A DNA stretch of 64,000 nucleotides, taken from NCBI RefSeq assembly GCF_023156505.1, contig NZ_JALNMJ010000015.1:62001-126000 (forward strand), given 5' to 3'. Position 1 is the first letter of the stretch; every line of letters begins with the position of its first letter. Of the stretch, positions 52,601-64,000 are shown piece after piece. The translations under genes and the position numbers were made by a program. Origin of the DNA: Roseibium sediminicola (GTDB lineage Bacteria > Pseudomonadota > Alphaproteobacteria > Rhizobiales > Stappiaceae). Below the pieces are notes generated by a model. That model saw nothing but the letters and a program-made list of their open reading frames with translations. It made no database searches and was not told the origin of the DNA.

Positions 52601-53260
52601 CTAATCGAAAATCGAGACGCGTCCGTCCGCAAGCACCATGCGGCGGGCGTCCACTTGTTCCAGCAGCGCGATATCGTGTGTCGCGATGACGACGGAGGTG
52701 CCGAGTTTGTTCAATTCGATGAACAGACGCAACAGACGGCGGGCGAGCGGCGGGTCTACGTTGCCGGTCGGCTCGTCGGCCAACAGCACTTCCGGACGCG
52801 TGATCAGCGCGCGTGCAATCGCCGCCCGCTGTTTTTCACCGCCTGACAGGACCGGCGGCAGCACATGCATGCGATCGCCGAGCCCAACCCATTTCAGAAG
52901 ATCGATCACGTCGGAGCGGTACTCGGCCTCCTCCTTGCCCACCACACGCAGTGGCAGGGCGACATTTTCATAGGTTGTCAGGTGGTCCAGCAGACGGAAA
53001 TCCTGAAACACCACGCCGATCTTGCGCCTGAGCTTGGGCAATTCGTTTTTTTCAATAACGCTCAGGTCGCGGTTGAACACCTTGATCAGCCCGCGTGTCG
53101 GCTGGAGTGACATGAACAGGAGCCGGATCAGGCTGGTCTTGCCGGCACCGGAGGGGCCGGTCAGGAACTGGAAGGACTGCGGTTCGATCTCAAAGCTGAG
53201 ATCGCGCAGGATTTCCGGGCCCATTCCATATCTCAATCCGACATTTTCAAAGCGGATCAC
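52601..53260 (-). CDS. ftsE: Cell division ATP-binding protein FtsE
   Basis: FtsE is the ABC-type ATPase partner of FtsX. The 219-residue protein has Walker A GPSGAGKTS, the signature LSGGEKQRAAIARAL, Walker B VLLADEPTGNVD and the switch histidine in VVIATHD. It is the first gene of ftsE-ftsX and possibly ydcF-plsC. A perfect CtrA box lies 52 bp upstream (53312-53326), suggesting cell-cycle control. Confidence 0.96.
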   Translation of the reverse strand: MIRFENVGLRYGMGPEILRDLSFEIEPQSFQFLTGPSGAGKTSLIRLLFMSLQPTRGLIKVFNRDLSVIEKNELPKLRRKIGVVFQDFRLLDHLTTYENVALPLRVVGKEEAEYRSDVIDLLKWVGLGDRMHVLPPVLSGGEKQRAAIARALITRPEVLLADEPTGNVDPPLARRLLRLFIELNKLGTSVVIATHDIALLEQVDARRMVLADGRVSIFD

Positions 53261-53311: not shown

Positions 53312-53326
53312 TTAACGGTGCATTAA
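53312..53326. promoter_or_regulatory. CtrA-binding consensus between ftsE and the zinc-ribbon gene
   Basis: TTAACGGTGCATTAA is an exact TTAA-N7-TTAA match to the CtrA full site. It lies 52 bp upstream of the ftsE start (minus strand) and 136 bp upstream of the zinc-ribbon gene (plus strand), so it could regulate either or both. CtrA occupancy is inferred from the motif. Confidence 0.65.
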
Positions 53327-53462: not shown

Positions 53463-54389
53463 ATGAAGATCAAATGTCCGGACTGCAGTACGTCCTACGA
53501 AATTAAGGCAGAGGCGGTCGGCGCGGAAGGCCGCAGCGTCAAATGCGCCAAATGCGGCAACCGCTGGTTCGTCTCGCCGGAGGACGACGAGGTCGGCGAT
53601 GTCGATTTCAGCGCGGCCGCCGACACCGCCGATGACGATGAGCCCGCAGTCGAGGACGGCACGGACAAGGACGAGGCCGATTGGGCCGCCGACGCTGAAG
53701 ACGACGACACGGCGCCGGACGCCGAAGACGACAGCGAACCCGACGACTTCAAGCCCGAACCGCCCGCTTCCCGTTCGAGCAAGGACGCAGACAAATACGC
53801 CGCGGATCTGGAAGACGATGAACCGGAAGGCAGCGGCACCGACATTGAATCCAGTGCCAAACGTCCAAAAATCATCGTCAATCCCGACAAGTTTCGACGC
53901 AATCACGTCGGCGCGTTGCTGAATTGGTTGTTCCGGCGCAATTACCGGCGGATCGGCGGCATCGCCCTGTTTGGCGCCGCGGTTGCCGTCTGCGCGATTT
54001 TCATCCTCATGCGCGACAATGTGGTCAAGCAGTCGCCCGATCTGGCCAGCCTGTTCCAGATGATCGGCTTTGACGTCAATCTGCGCGGTCTGGAGTTCCG
54101 CAACCTCAGAACCTTCACCGAAGTTGAGGACGGCAAGCGGGTTCTGGTCGTCGAAGGCTCGATCCGCAATCTGCTCCAGGAACGCAACACCGTGCCGGCG
54201 GTGCGCCTGTCGATCCGCAGCGGCGACATGCAGGAAGTTTATGCCTGGACGGTCGAACCGCGCACAAAATCGCTGAACGCACTGGACGAGACCCGGTTCA
54301 GGACGATATTAGCCGACCCGCCAGCAAATGCTTCCGATATCCAGGTTCGTTTTGTCGAGCGCGGCAAACGGCAAATAGTTCTCGAGTGA
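53463..54389 (+). CDS. MJ0042-type zinc-ribbon membrane protein
   Basis: This 308-residue protein starts with an MJ0042 zinc ribbon: KCPDCSTSYEI and KCAKCGNRWF supply four cysteines (C5, C8, C29, C32). A long acidic linker follows (about 40-135, rich in D and E). Then come a basic patch, a membrane helix (IGGIALFGAAVAVCAIFILM) and a C-terminal DUF3426-like beta domain (GLEFRNLRTFTEVEDGKRVLVVEGSIRNLLQ). Such proteins are widespread in alphaproteobacteria with no firm role. The gene is divergent from ftsE and abuts hpt. Confidence 0.85.
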   Translation: MKIKCPDCSTSYEIKAEAVGAEGRSVKCAKCGNRWFVSPEDDEVGDVDFSAAADTADDDEPAVEDGTDKDEADWAADAEDDDTAPDAEDDSEPDDFKPEPPASRSSKDADKYAADLEDDEPEGSGTDIESSAKRPKIIVNPDKFRRNHVGALLNWLFRRNYRRIGGIALFGAAVAVCAIFILMRDNVVKQSPDLASLFQMIGFDVNLRGLEFRNLRTFTEVEDGKRVLVVEGSIRNLLQERNTVPAVRLSIRSGDMQEVYAWTVEPRTKSLNALDETRFRTILADPPANASDIQVRFVERGKRQIVLE

Positions 54390-61840: not shown

Positions 61841-62503
61841 ATGACCAAGCCAACCGAACCCGCAAAAGCCTCCAGACGCGGACTTTATGCCGCCGGGCTC
61901 GCCGGTGCAGTGGCCGCCGTAGCGGCTCTATACGTGATCGTTGGTCCGAATGGCAACATCACCGGCGTGCAAAGCTGTTCGGCGGCGCTTGACCTGGCCA
62001 AGTCCGCCAGGCCCTTTGCCACCGGCGAAGTGGCCGCCTTCCTGCCGGCGAGCCAGCCGCTCGACCTTCAGCATCTGGCTTTCCAGGGCGAAGACGGCAT
62101 GCAGGTTTCGCTGGCCGATTTCAAGGACAAGACGGTCCTGCTCAATCTGTGGGCGACCTGGTGCGCACCCTGCCGCAAGGAAATGCCGGCGCTGGACGAG
62201 TTGCAGGCCGAGATGGGCAGTGACGATTTCGAGGTGGTGGCGGTCAATCTCGACCGGGGCGGACCGGAGAAGCCCAAGACGTTCCTGTCCGAGATCGGCG
62301 TCAGCAAGCTGGGCTTTTATCAGGACAGCTCAAACAAGCTGCTGCAGGATTTGAGGAAAGTCGCCCGCGCAACCGGGTTGCCGACCACGATCCTGGTCAG
62401 CCCGCAGGGTTGCGAGATCGGAACCATGTACGGCCCCGCCGAATGGGCATCCGGCGAGGCCAAGGCACTTATTCAGTCCGTGATGAAACCCTCCGGCGCC
62501 TGA
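61841..62503 (+). CDS. tlpA: TlpA-family membrane-anchored thioredoxin
   Basis: This 220-residue protein has an N-terminal anchor ([22 protein letters not shown]) and a periplasmic thioredoxin domain with the WCAPC active site in [19 protein letters not shown]. The cis-proline loop is [15 protein letters not shown], and a TlpA-type cysteine precedes the domain (GVQSCSAA). Such proteins reduce cytochrome oxidase assembly factors or apocytochromes. The start ATG at 61841 follows GGGGTG; an in-frame ATG at 61826 is an alternative. It is divergent from argH, the usual neighbour. Confidence 0.92.
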
Positions 62504-62520
62504 CGGCGCTTGAGAATTCC

Positions 62521-62733
62521 TCAAACCGTGATGTCGACAGCGTTGCCGAGACCCGGGATCTGACGCTGTTCGCGGCGATCCTCTTCCTGGGTCGCCTGGG
62601 CTTCTTCCAGACGCTCCGCGACCTGGCGCTCCTGATCGTTCTGGTCCTTGACCGCGTTTGCGGCCAATTCGTTTCGAACGCTTGCGGCGCTGTAAGCGGC
62701 CGAGGAGGAGCTGCTGTCGGATACACTCGCCAT
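62521..62733 (-). CDS. Small protein with GLG-x2-VDI C-terminal tail, first of three
   Basis: This 70-residue protein (MASVSDSSSSSAAYSAASVRNELAANAVKDQNDQ) has a serine/alanine-rich start, a charged helical middle and the tail IPGLGNAVDITV. The start follows AAGGGAG. The tail matches those of the genes at 62803-63063 (DGLGTQVNILA) and 63365-63568 (PGLGGTVDVTA), so the three appear related in their last ten residues. Function unknown; a link to motility is suggested by the third member. Confidence 0.65.
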   Translation of the reverse strand: MASVSDSSSSSAAYSAASVRNELAANAVKDQNDQERQVAERLEEAQATQEEDRREQRQIPGLGNAVDITV

Positions 62734-62802
62734 TGCCGGTACTCCCTTGGCGTGGTGATGGGGTTATGCCTGTTGCCGGGTCTTTTCCGGTCATCCCTGG
62801 TT

Positions 62803-63063
62803 CTAGGCCAGGATGTTGACCTGTGTTCCCAGTCCGTCTTCCAGGCTGCGCGTTTCGGCGCGATTTTCCAGTTGGTCAGCTTGCCGGCTCAGAAACTCCG
62901 CCCGGTTCGTGCTGAATTCTGCCTGACGCTGCACGGTCACAGCGGCAGCTTCAGACCGTTTCGCTTTCACCGCCTCGGCTTGCTCCGCGACCTGTTCGGT
63001 CCGCGGTGTCGCCAAGTTCGGCTGAAACGCCTGACTTGATCCATATCCTATTGCTTCAGGCAT
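62803..63063 (-). CDS. Small protein with GLG-x2-VNI C-terminal tail, second of three
   Basis: This 86-residue protein is highly charged and helical (QVAEQAEAVKAKRSEAAAVTVQRQAEFSTNRAEFLSRQADQLENRAETRSL), probably a coiled coil, ending DGLGTQVNILA. The start is set at ATG 63063 (MPEAIGYGSSQ); the frame is open to 63141 without a site. It lies 69 bp upstream of the first member, on the same strand. Confidence 0.6.
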   Translation of the reverse strand: MPEAIGYGSSQAFQPNLATPRTEQVAEQAEAVKAKRSEAAAVTVQRQAEFSTNRAEFLSRQADQLENRAETRSLEDGLGTQVNILA

Positions 63064-63364
63064 CGTCGTTCCAATCCTTGGATACGATATTGCGACTACA
63101 TCCTGAGACAAATAGCTGAATTTAAAGGTAAACCCCATCACTTACCTTTAGGCAAAGTGAGTCGAATACTGATCTGAAATTGAGAATTTTCTTAAAATTT
63201 TATCTATTTGCATCCAACGCATTGAAGGAACACGGGTTCGCACTTTGTAACGGGCAATGCGGCTCCACCTCAACCGGACCGGCACCACGTTCCCAAGACA
63301 TCAAAAAACCGCCCGAAAGGTTCGAGCGGTCGCACGATGTTAAGAAATGGAGATGGGGAAGCGC
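63064..63364. other. AT-rich intergenic region
   Basis: This 301-bp stretch between two small genes is visibly more AT-rich than its surroundings (for example around 63180-63220). It carries the terminator at 63303-63331. I see no gene or repeat in it; it probably holds the promoter of the gene at 62803-63063. Confidence 0.5.
63303..63331 (-). terminator. Rho-independent terminator of the YjfB-like gene
   Basis: On the minus strand a stem (ACCGC/GCGGT plus CGAA/TTCG) is followed by TTTTTTG. It lies 34 bp past the stop at 63365, so the YjfB-like gene is probably transcribed separately from the two small genes further along. Confidence 0.75.
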
Positions 63365-63568
63365 TTAGGCCGTCACGTCAACAGTGCCGCCAAGACCCGG
63401 CGCGGGAGCTGCCTGGGCCGATTGCAGATTTTCGGCGCCCTGCTGCAGCAGCGCCACCAGATTGGCGTCCTGCTGGGCGGCCATTTTCAGCATTTTGGAT
63501 TGCAGGGCCTGGGCCGTCTGGGCCTGAGACTGTGCAACGAATGTATTGGCAATGCCAACGCTGTCCAT
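63365..63568 (-). CDS. YjfB-like putative motility protein
   Basis: This 67-residue protein (MDSVGIANTFVAQSQAQTAQALQSKMLKMAAQQDANLVALLQQGAENLQSAQAAPAPGLGGTVDVTA) has the layout of the YjfB family of putative motility proteins. These start with a short M-D-(I/S)-x-(A/G) opening and a Q-rich helix, and end P-x-L-G-x2-(I/V)-D-(V/I). GAGGAG lies six bases before the ATG. A perfect CtrA box is 41 bp upstream (63609-63623), and CtrA drives flagellar genes in many alphaproteobacteria. The role is inferred. Confidence 0.7.
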   Translation of the reverse strand: MDSVGIANTFVAQSQAQTAQALQSKMLKMAAQQDANLVALLQQGAENLQSAQAAPAPGLGGTVDVTA

Positions 63569-63608
63569 CTGGAACTCCTCGATTCCACCGCACCCTACCC
63601 GCCCGCCC

Positions 63609-63623
63609 TTAAACAGGCGTTAA
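63609..63623. promoter_or_regulatory. CtrA-binding consensus upstream of the YjfB-like gene
   Basis: TTAAACAGGCGTTAA is an exact TTAA-N7-TTAA match. It ends 14 bp before the ligase stop codon and lies 41 bp upstream of the YjfB-like start on the minus strand, a typical promoter position. Binding by CtrA is inferred from the motif. Confidence 0.65.
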
Positions 63624-63637
63624 CACCTTGCGTCCGG

Positions 63638-64000
63638 TCAGTCGCCCGACTGTTGCCGCAAGGCCGCCCGGCGGACTTTGCCGGATGCGGTGCGCGGCAG
63701 GCTGTCGAGCACCCGATAGACCTTCGGCCGCTTGTATTCAGCAAGGTTCGAGGCGGCATGCGCCGCCAGACGGTCAGCGCTGAAACCGGCCGGATCGCTT
63801 GGAACCACAAAGGCCGTGATCAGGCTGATGCCGTCCCGCGACGGCACCGCCGTTACCGCAACCTCCTGTACCTGGGGGTCGGCGGACAGCACCCGCTCCA
63901 CTTCTTCCGGCGCCACCCGGTAGCCGAAGGCATTCATCAGGTCGTCGGCGCGGCCCTCGTACCAATAGTACCCGTCCTGGTCGGCCCGGGCCCGGTCGCC
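63638..64000 (-). CDS. C-terminal part of an AMP-dependent acyl-CoA synthetase (cut by window end)
   Basis: The visible 120 residues are the C-terminal lid domain of an ANL-family adenylating enzyme. They start inside the hinge region (YYWYEGRADDLMNAFGYRVAPEEVERVLSADPQVQEVAVTAVP). The domain ends with the catalytic lysine motif LDSLPRTASGKVRRAALRQQ. The substrate-binding N-terminal domain lies beyond position 64000, so the acyl substrate cannot be judged. It resembles benzoate- or medium-chain acyl-CoA ligases. Confidence 0.88.
   Translation of the reverse strand, partial: GDRARADQDGYYWYEGRADDLMNAFGYRVAPEEVERVLSADPQVQEVAVTAVPSRDGISLITAFVVPSDPAGFSADRLAAHAASNLAEYKRPKVYRVLDSLPRTASGKVRRAALRQQSGD

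Follow-up and report, generated by a model that had tools for sequence, protein, structure and literature searches.

A conserved trio of small genes with a common C-terminal tail, one of them related to YjfB, lies behind predicted control sites of flagellar type in Roseibium sediminicola

Near one end of a 64,000-nucleotide stretch of Roseibium sediminicola DNA (the window) lie three very small genes, here P1, P2 and P3, whose products finish in one and the same pattern of residues, and the locus raises the question of whether these are real genes and, if so, what a tail common to three such short proteins is for. One of the three resembles YjfB, a protein of Bacillus subtilis that also occurs in 32 of 299 sampled genomes of the phylum and is named 'putative motility protein'. 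In the accessible part of a recent report (PMC11607428, 2024) YjfB is called an uncharacterized small protein of flagellar superoperons that also carry sigma-28. The trio locus provides three handles on YjfB, namely a fixed end suited to peptide experiments, a CtrA-type promoter site and a sister unit with a hook-operon element, and through it a vague family label becomes a testable proposal. The reading to which we lean, with somewhat better than even confidence, is that the trio consists of accessory proteins of the flagellum, made as two units, which dock through a peptide common to their C-termini. As the initial annotation had described, the three tiny open reading frames with their related tails are all on the minus strand:

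63365..63568, minus strand: P3, 67 aa, ends PGLGGTVDVTA; divergent PF14070/YjfB relative, predicted to be its own transcription unit
63307..63331, minus strand: predicted intrinsic terminator directly 3' of P3; 11-pair stem, then a T run
62803..63063, minus strand: P2, 86 aa from a conserved ATG, charged body, ends DGLGTQVNILA
62521..62733, minus strand: P1, 70 aa; Ser-rich start, charged helix, end RQIPGLGNAVDITV

The order of transcription is P3-P2-P1, so that P3 is the first gene of the array; the C-terminal end of P1 is IPGLGNAVDITV, and the P2 frame has an alternative opening at a GTG (63141). P1-P3 are real genes, since relatives across the genus have alignable starts for all three (the start codons of the relatives were picked partly on their Shine-Dalgarno score) and the pN/pS values within the genus are well below 1 in both tail and body. 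These values were 0.18 for the tail and 0.37 for the body of P1 (n=19), 0.48 and 0.50 for P2 (n=18), and 0.39 and 0.34 for P3 (n=19). All three genes are thus under purifying selection within the genus, and the tail is clearly better conserved than the body in P1 only. No Rfam match above the gathering score, which would have pointed to an RNA gene, was observed in 62300-64000; a phage origin was not supported by PHROG, where the lowest E-value was 0.045; and a search of solved structures with all three profiles returned weak matches without flagellar meaning (best E 0.018). The predicted models of P3 and P1, which are of low confidence (mean pLDDT 62 and 69, respectively), show one helix and, after it, a tail without structure. 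The terminator behind P3 is strong (-24.9 kcal/mol over a 56-base stretch, z -5.6, with equal stability in 0 of 200 shuffles), and P2-P1 are therefore probably a second unit, in which P1, separated by a gap of 69 bp, is probably co-transcribed with P2.

The three proteins end with the pattern G-x-x-[VILFM]-[DN]-x-x-[AVIL]-end. Six-frame translation gave 1,337 ORFs with a minimum length of 40 aa, 525 from the window and 317 and 495 from two stretches (40 and 60 kb) of flagellar DNA in this genome. The pattern was present in exactly P1, P2 and P3, and their common tail is not chance. Unconserved tails in orthologues had been named as a refutation of the initial idea; the pattern was kept by all fetched relatives of P1 (27/27), P2 (24/24) and P3 (30/30), where the P1 and P3 sets contain a few single-copy genes from sister genera. 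The P1 set omits two single-copy loci (L005 and L006, which are L086 and L078 in the P3 set) and the weak L032, and still includes the weak, single-copy-like L030 and L031; the P2 set omits the weak L057; and the P3 set comprises 30 fetched loci of the 45 matching genomes, five of them single-copy. That such a tail is also seen in the YjfB family was borne out as well, because it stood at the C-terminus of 29/29 fetched PF14070 matches from the phylum (L137-L165, from the 32 genomes with a match and with P3 itself excluded), a count that is partly circular since the PF14070 model itself covers the tail. The tail has a fixed distance to the carboxyl end and alternating hydrophobic residues. A tail of fixed length that is predicted to be disordered, lies at the C-terminus and alternates in this manner would suit a strand-type docking on a partner; an export signal in this position would, to our knowledge, be unusual.

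We then compared the proteins with PF14070 (YjfB_motility). P3 was aligned with the whole model (1-57 of 57; E 1.1e-5) at 25.8 bits, and at 24.7 bits in the genome search. This is below the curated cut-off of 27 bits, and P3 is therefore a divergent relative and not a formal member of the family, so that its earlier description as YjfB-like is correct, though weak by Pfam. P3 has the length, the MD-type start and the C-terminal G-x-x-[VIL]-[DN]-x-x-[AV] of that family, and PF14070 matches, like the relatives of P3, occur in FliF-bearing genomes. The present case differs from the family as described in that P3 remains just under the cut-off, P1 and P2 escape detection by Pfam search (for P1, no PF14070 match at E<=10), and the genes form a three-gene array with two predicted control systems, of which no other case was found in the accessible literature.

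In order to compare the bodies, the last ten residues were removed and profile searches were scored against shuffled controls, with the 95% level of the shuffles as the limit. The PF14070 body profile gave scores above this level with P3 (24/24) and P1 (20/25; median 8.7 bits, which is weak), and with 3/24 of the P2 bodies. The same was observed with the profile of seven single-copy genes, which had been chosen by P1 or P3 searches including the tail: it exceeded the level in 24/24 P3, 20/25 P1 (median 19.8 bits; shuffles about 0) and 1/24 P2 bodies. In the reverse searches on PF14070, the P3 profile exceeded the level in 18/29 and the P1 profile in 8/29. P1 and P3 are probably paralogues, linked via the single-copy genes. 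Because of this linkage of their bodies, we reject for P1 and P3 the idea of an independent tag set on all three proteins; for P2 such a tag may still apply. P2 would be a paralogue that has diverged to an extreme degree or else another protein ending in the same way. The initial annotation had placed the tail on otherwise different bodies; it is instead how YjfB-family proteins characteristically end, and the claim of differing bodies stands for P2, which has no convincing relation to the others, and fails for P1, whose body is YjfB-related too.

These comparisons bear directly on plain paralogy, the alternative that survives best, to which we give a real if minority chance. According to it the three genes are tandem YjfB duplicates, the tail is their slowest-changing remnant without a shared partner, and P2 has diverged past recognition. 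The scores of the P1 bodies with both the single-copy and the PF14070 profiles agree with this, as do the weak matches (E 0.002 to 0.04) that P3 queries including the tail gave in four genomes to orthologues of P1 or P2, and the existence of two tandem P3-like matches in each of two other genomes. However, the P2 body hardly rises over shuffles whichever other set it is compared with (0 to 17% above the 95% level), its own profile finding 1 to 4 bodies per set, and the direct comparison of P1 with P3 is also weak (P1 profile on P3, 4/24; P3 profile on P1, 7/25). With hhalign, after cutting the last twelve residues, the P3 bodies matched those of P1 and P2 at E 0.05 to 0.33, and the P1-P2 bodies were weakly alike (E 5.8e-4 and 0.011 in the two directions), which is a weak hint. 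Furthermore, paralogy alone leaves unexplained that the last ten residues are fixed while the bodies change. We keep as the preferred reading that of accessory proteins with a common docking end, in which P1 and P3 would derive from one YjfB-type ancestor and P2 would have the same end joined to a body whose origin cannot be traced.

When the genome collection was scanned with the P1 alignment, 32 loci were obtained, of which 29 are under the names Roseibium, Labrenzia, Stappia or Pannonibacter and 3 under broader alphaproteobacterial names. Among 61 genomes of the family, at E<=0.1 and with weak matches counted, the queries matched in 31 (P1), 25 (P2) and 45 genomes (P3), and the last figure takes in single-copy relatives as well as weak matches. 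Genus g103 (16 genomes) gave no P1-P3 match better than E 0.015. The order P3-P2-P1, on one strand and within 1.5 kb, was conserved in 23 of the 25 genomes with a clear P1, a set that omits G041, G081, G205, G211, G231 and G246 as single-copy or weak P1 matches; the exceptions are G208, in which P3 is ~20 kb off, and G235, in which P2 was unmatched and P1 and P3 are on separate contigs. In 10 neighbourhoods the array was followed by a tlpA-like gene and by genes that we take to be argH-like and lysA-like (10/10), and was preceded on the opposite side by an AMP-ligase gene (8/10), the tlpA-like and AMP-ligase labels resting on Pfam. Most of the counts given here rest on related genomes.

The genome has two flagellar clusters, L132 on contig C25 and L135/L136 on contig C12. 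The second contains flgE-flgK, assigned by NCBIfam, and an OmpR/PhoB-type regulator gene that we take to be Rem/FtcR-like; the neighbours of fliF in the first, as judged by eye from the starts of their ORFs, are presumably FliG-, FlbD- and SciP-like. The upstream regions of the trio contain predicted control sites of flagellar type. The first such site lies before P3:

63609..63623, minus strand: predicted CtrA box TTAA-N7-TTAA, 41-55 bp upstream of the P3 start codon

The full CtrA site is TTAA-N7-TTAA in the accessible part of PMC6180460. A full box was observed upstream of P3 in 21 of 30 loci, with 0.02 expected from dinucleotide shuffles. When one mismatch was allowed, 29 of 30 had a box (1.55 expected). 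Upstream of P1 (0/27) and of P2 (0/24), full boxes were absent. In 498 kb of relatives (32 loci), 24 full boxes were counted, and P3 begins within 120 bp downstream of 22 of these; the 498 kb come largely from the same genomes as the upstream set, and P3 was placed in all but 3 of the 32 loci. By base composition, 0.12 full boxes would be expected across the whole window. A second full box is present in it at 53312-53326, between the gene of an FtsE-like ABC ATPase (52601-53260, minus strand) and a zinc-ribbon gene (53463-54389, plus strand). In the first flagellar cluster a full box also precedes the fliF ORF, 18 bp before its first possible start, and the same contig has a further one before an acetyltransferase ORF; the 60 kb examined of the second cluster contain no such box. 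P3 is thus a candidate member of the CtrA regulon, with a conserved full site near its start to which CtrA would bind. In this respect P3 resembles the CtrA-controlled flagellar promoters of alphaproteobacteria, as these appear in the accessible part of PMC6180460, and the fliF of its own genome; it differs in that the target is a YjfB-type gene and the site is a predicted one. Among the P3-type matches in other members of the class, 1/9 loci had a full box nearby. This is G286 (L127, L148), from another alphaproteobacterial family, in which a PF14070 gene over the cut-off has the predicted full box just upstream and which is a separate case of the P3 arrangement.

The second site precedes P2:

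63193..63202, minus strand: palindromic element TAAAATTTTA, 130-139 bp upstream of the P2 ATG

Upstream of P2 in the relatives, the best match to TAAAATTTTA, scored without a shuffle control, was exact in 11/24 and had at most two mismatches in 24/24, at -124 to -158. A matrix was built from these sites, with the lowest training score (19.3) as threshold, and in 216 kb of the own genome (the window, contig C25 and 100 kb of C12) it had two matches only, the one at P2 and one in the second flagellar system, 117 bp ahead of flgE (L135:10083-10092, on contig C12), the latter being independent of the training. The flgE set comprised 29 of 30 loci (the partial L217 was omitted) from 35 genomes; outside g103, 15 of the 18 genomes have the element before flgE at -107 to -125, and in g103 3/11 reached the threshold, two of these at -106. 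Before the Rem/FtcR-like regulator gene it was reached in 7/21 (21 of 30 loci from 37 genomes, g103 omitted), and the own genome is not among these seven.

Six genomes with the trio (G207, G226, G232, G241, G244 and G251) have, at the thresholds used, neither the flgE of the second system nor the Rem/FtcR-like regulator, and they retain the P2 element with 0, 1, 0, 0, 2 and 2 mismatches, respectively. The element is therefore not simply the box of that regulator, which is weakened as the factor acting on it. A role of P2-P1 in the second flagellum only is likewise weakened. In addition, the FtcR motif TGTGGGCA, as given in the accessible part of PMC9456535, differs from the P2 element.

The co-occurrence with flagellar genes, which had been suggested as a check, turned out as expected for a motility family: every genome in which YjfB-type genes were found also has FliF. 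A search for P3-type genes (alignment A2, E<=0.01) was positive in 10/289 alphaproteobacterial genomes, with FliF in 10/10 of these and in 175/289 overall; at most 21 candidates were scored per genome, so that absences are soft. PF14070 matches (E<=0.001) were found in 32/299 genomes of the phylum, 24 of them over the cut-off, with FliF in 32/32 and in 247/299 overall. The hypergeometric P values, with relatedness ignored, are 0.006 for the class and 0.0015 for the phylum; the genome lists were matched by eye, and two genomes are among the matches of both samples. Inside the family this co-occurrence is uninformative as evidence, since 61/61 genomes have FliF. The converse fails: the genus g103, although without the trio at the level given above, has FliF in 16/16 genomes, and P1-P3 are therefore not essential flagellar parts. 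The controls E. coli, Caulobacter and Thermotoga have FliF and no PF14070; at the loose E<=1, two controls besides B. subtilis match PF14070, under the cut-off. The YjfB of the flagellar superoperons, beside sigma-28 and FapA in the accessible part of PMC11607428, is like the present proteins a small protein tied to flagellar genes, but the trio sits outside flagellar operons and its P3 lies behind a predicted CtrA box. Elsewhere in the phylum, 0/10 ORFs flanking PF14070 matches had a flagellar Pfam match and 4 had no match at all; one long ORF, chosen by length, was taken from each of 10 of the 29 loci, and these may not all be genes.

The predicted control sites of fliF type and flgE type add a link to motility that the initial annotation did not have, and the case for a regulatory connection to flagellar genes, as far as the sequence can indicate it, is a good one. 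An unlikely alternative is that the trio encodes CtrA-regulon proteins of the cell cycle or of a surface lifestyle, without a direct flagellar role. CtrA regulates more than flagella, as far as the accessible portion of its literature tells, full boxes in the own genome also stand beside the ftsE-like, zinc-ribbon and acetyltransferase genes, and this alternative would agree both with the position of the trio outside flagellar operons and with the FliF-bearing g103; on the other hand, YjfB-type matches are confined to FliF-bearing genomes, and a second control element is common to P2 and flgE. It is improbable that the C-terminal tail marks the three proteins for degradation and thereby sets when in the cell cycle they disappear: the tail is short and predicted to be disordered, with small hydrophobic residues at its end, and genes timed by CtrA often make short-lived proteins, but its conserved core, with G, V/I and D/N, lies 3-8 residues from the end, known degradation tags follow a simple end rule, and the tail is retained in distant families of the phylum.

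The shared tail, the synteny and the flagellar-type control sites together argue that P1-P3 are probably unexplored accessory parts of the swimming apparatus. In the mechanism that we propose, the three proteins would be built on the YjfB plan, i.e., a helix with a disordered C-terminal peptide. P3 alone would stand behind a CtrA box, as does the fliF of the CtrA-type flagellum, and P2-P1 would stand behind the palindromic element that also precedes the flgE-flgK hook operon of the second flagellar system; CtrA and a second factor would bind these sites. Accessory proteins would then be made at two stages of flagellar assembly, P3 under control of the fliF type and P2-P1 under that of the flgE type. 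The tail would most likely dock all three, successively or competitively, on one partner, either in the flagellum or in the export machinery, with an effect on motility. The initial interpretation is favored in part, by the conservation of the tail and the co-occurrence with FliF; the docking that it suggested would suit the properties of the peptide. Going further, we consider it possible, albeit doubtful, that the YjfB tail is a transferable docking peptide for a receptor of the flagellar apparatus, which has been placed on unrelated small helical proteins such as P2 and, through different flagellar promoters, lets successive proteins share one site. If so, YjfB-tailed proteins would be timed by promoters of the CtrA/fliF type and of the hook-operon type, and would occupy the same site in turn during assembly.

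The arrangement of the trio is real and conserved, in a family that is known but has yet to be explained. It is new to the literature searched, within whose reach most subscription papers did not fall, and this agrees with the earlier remark that no such trio had been described. Finally, G260 (L121, L131) and G374 (L122, L129), from the alphaproteobacterial family f60, have the two tandem P3-like matches mentioned above ~0.1 kb apart in each genome, and tandem arrays of YjfB type may therefore have arisen repeatedly.
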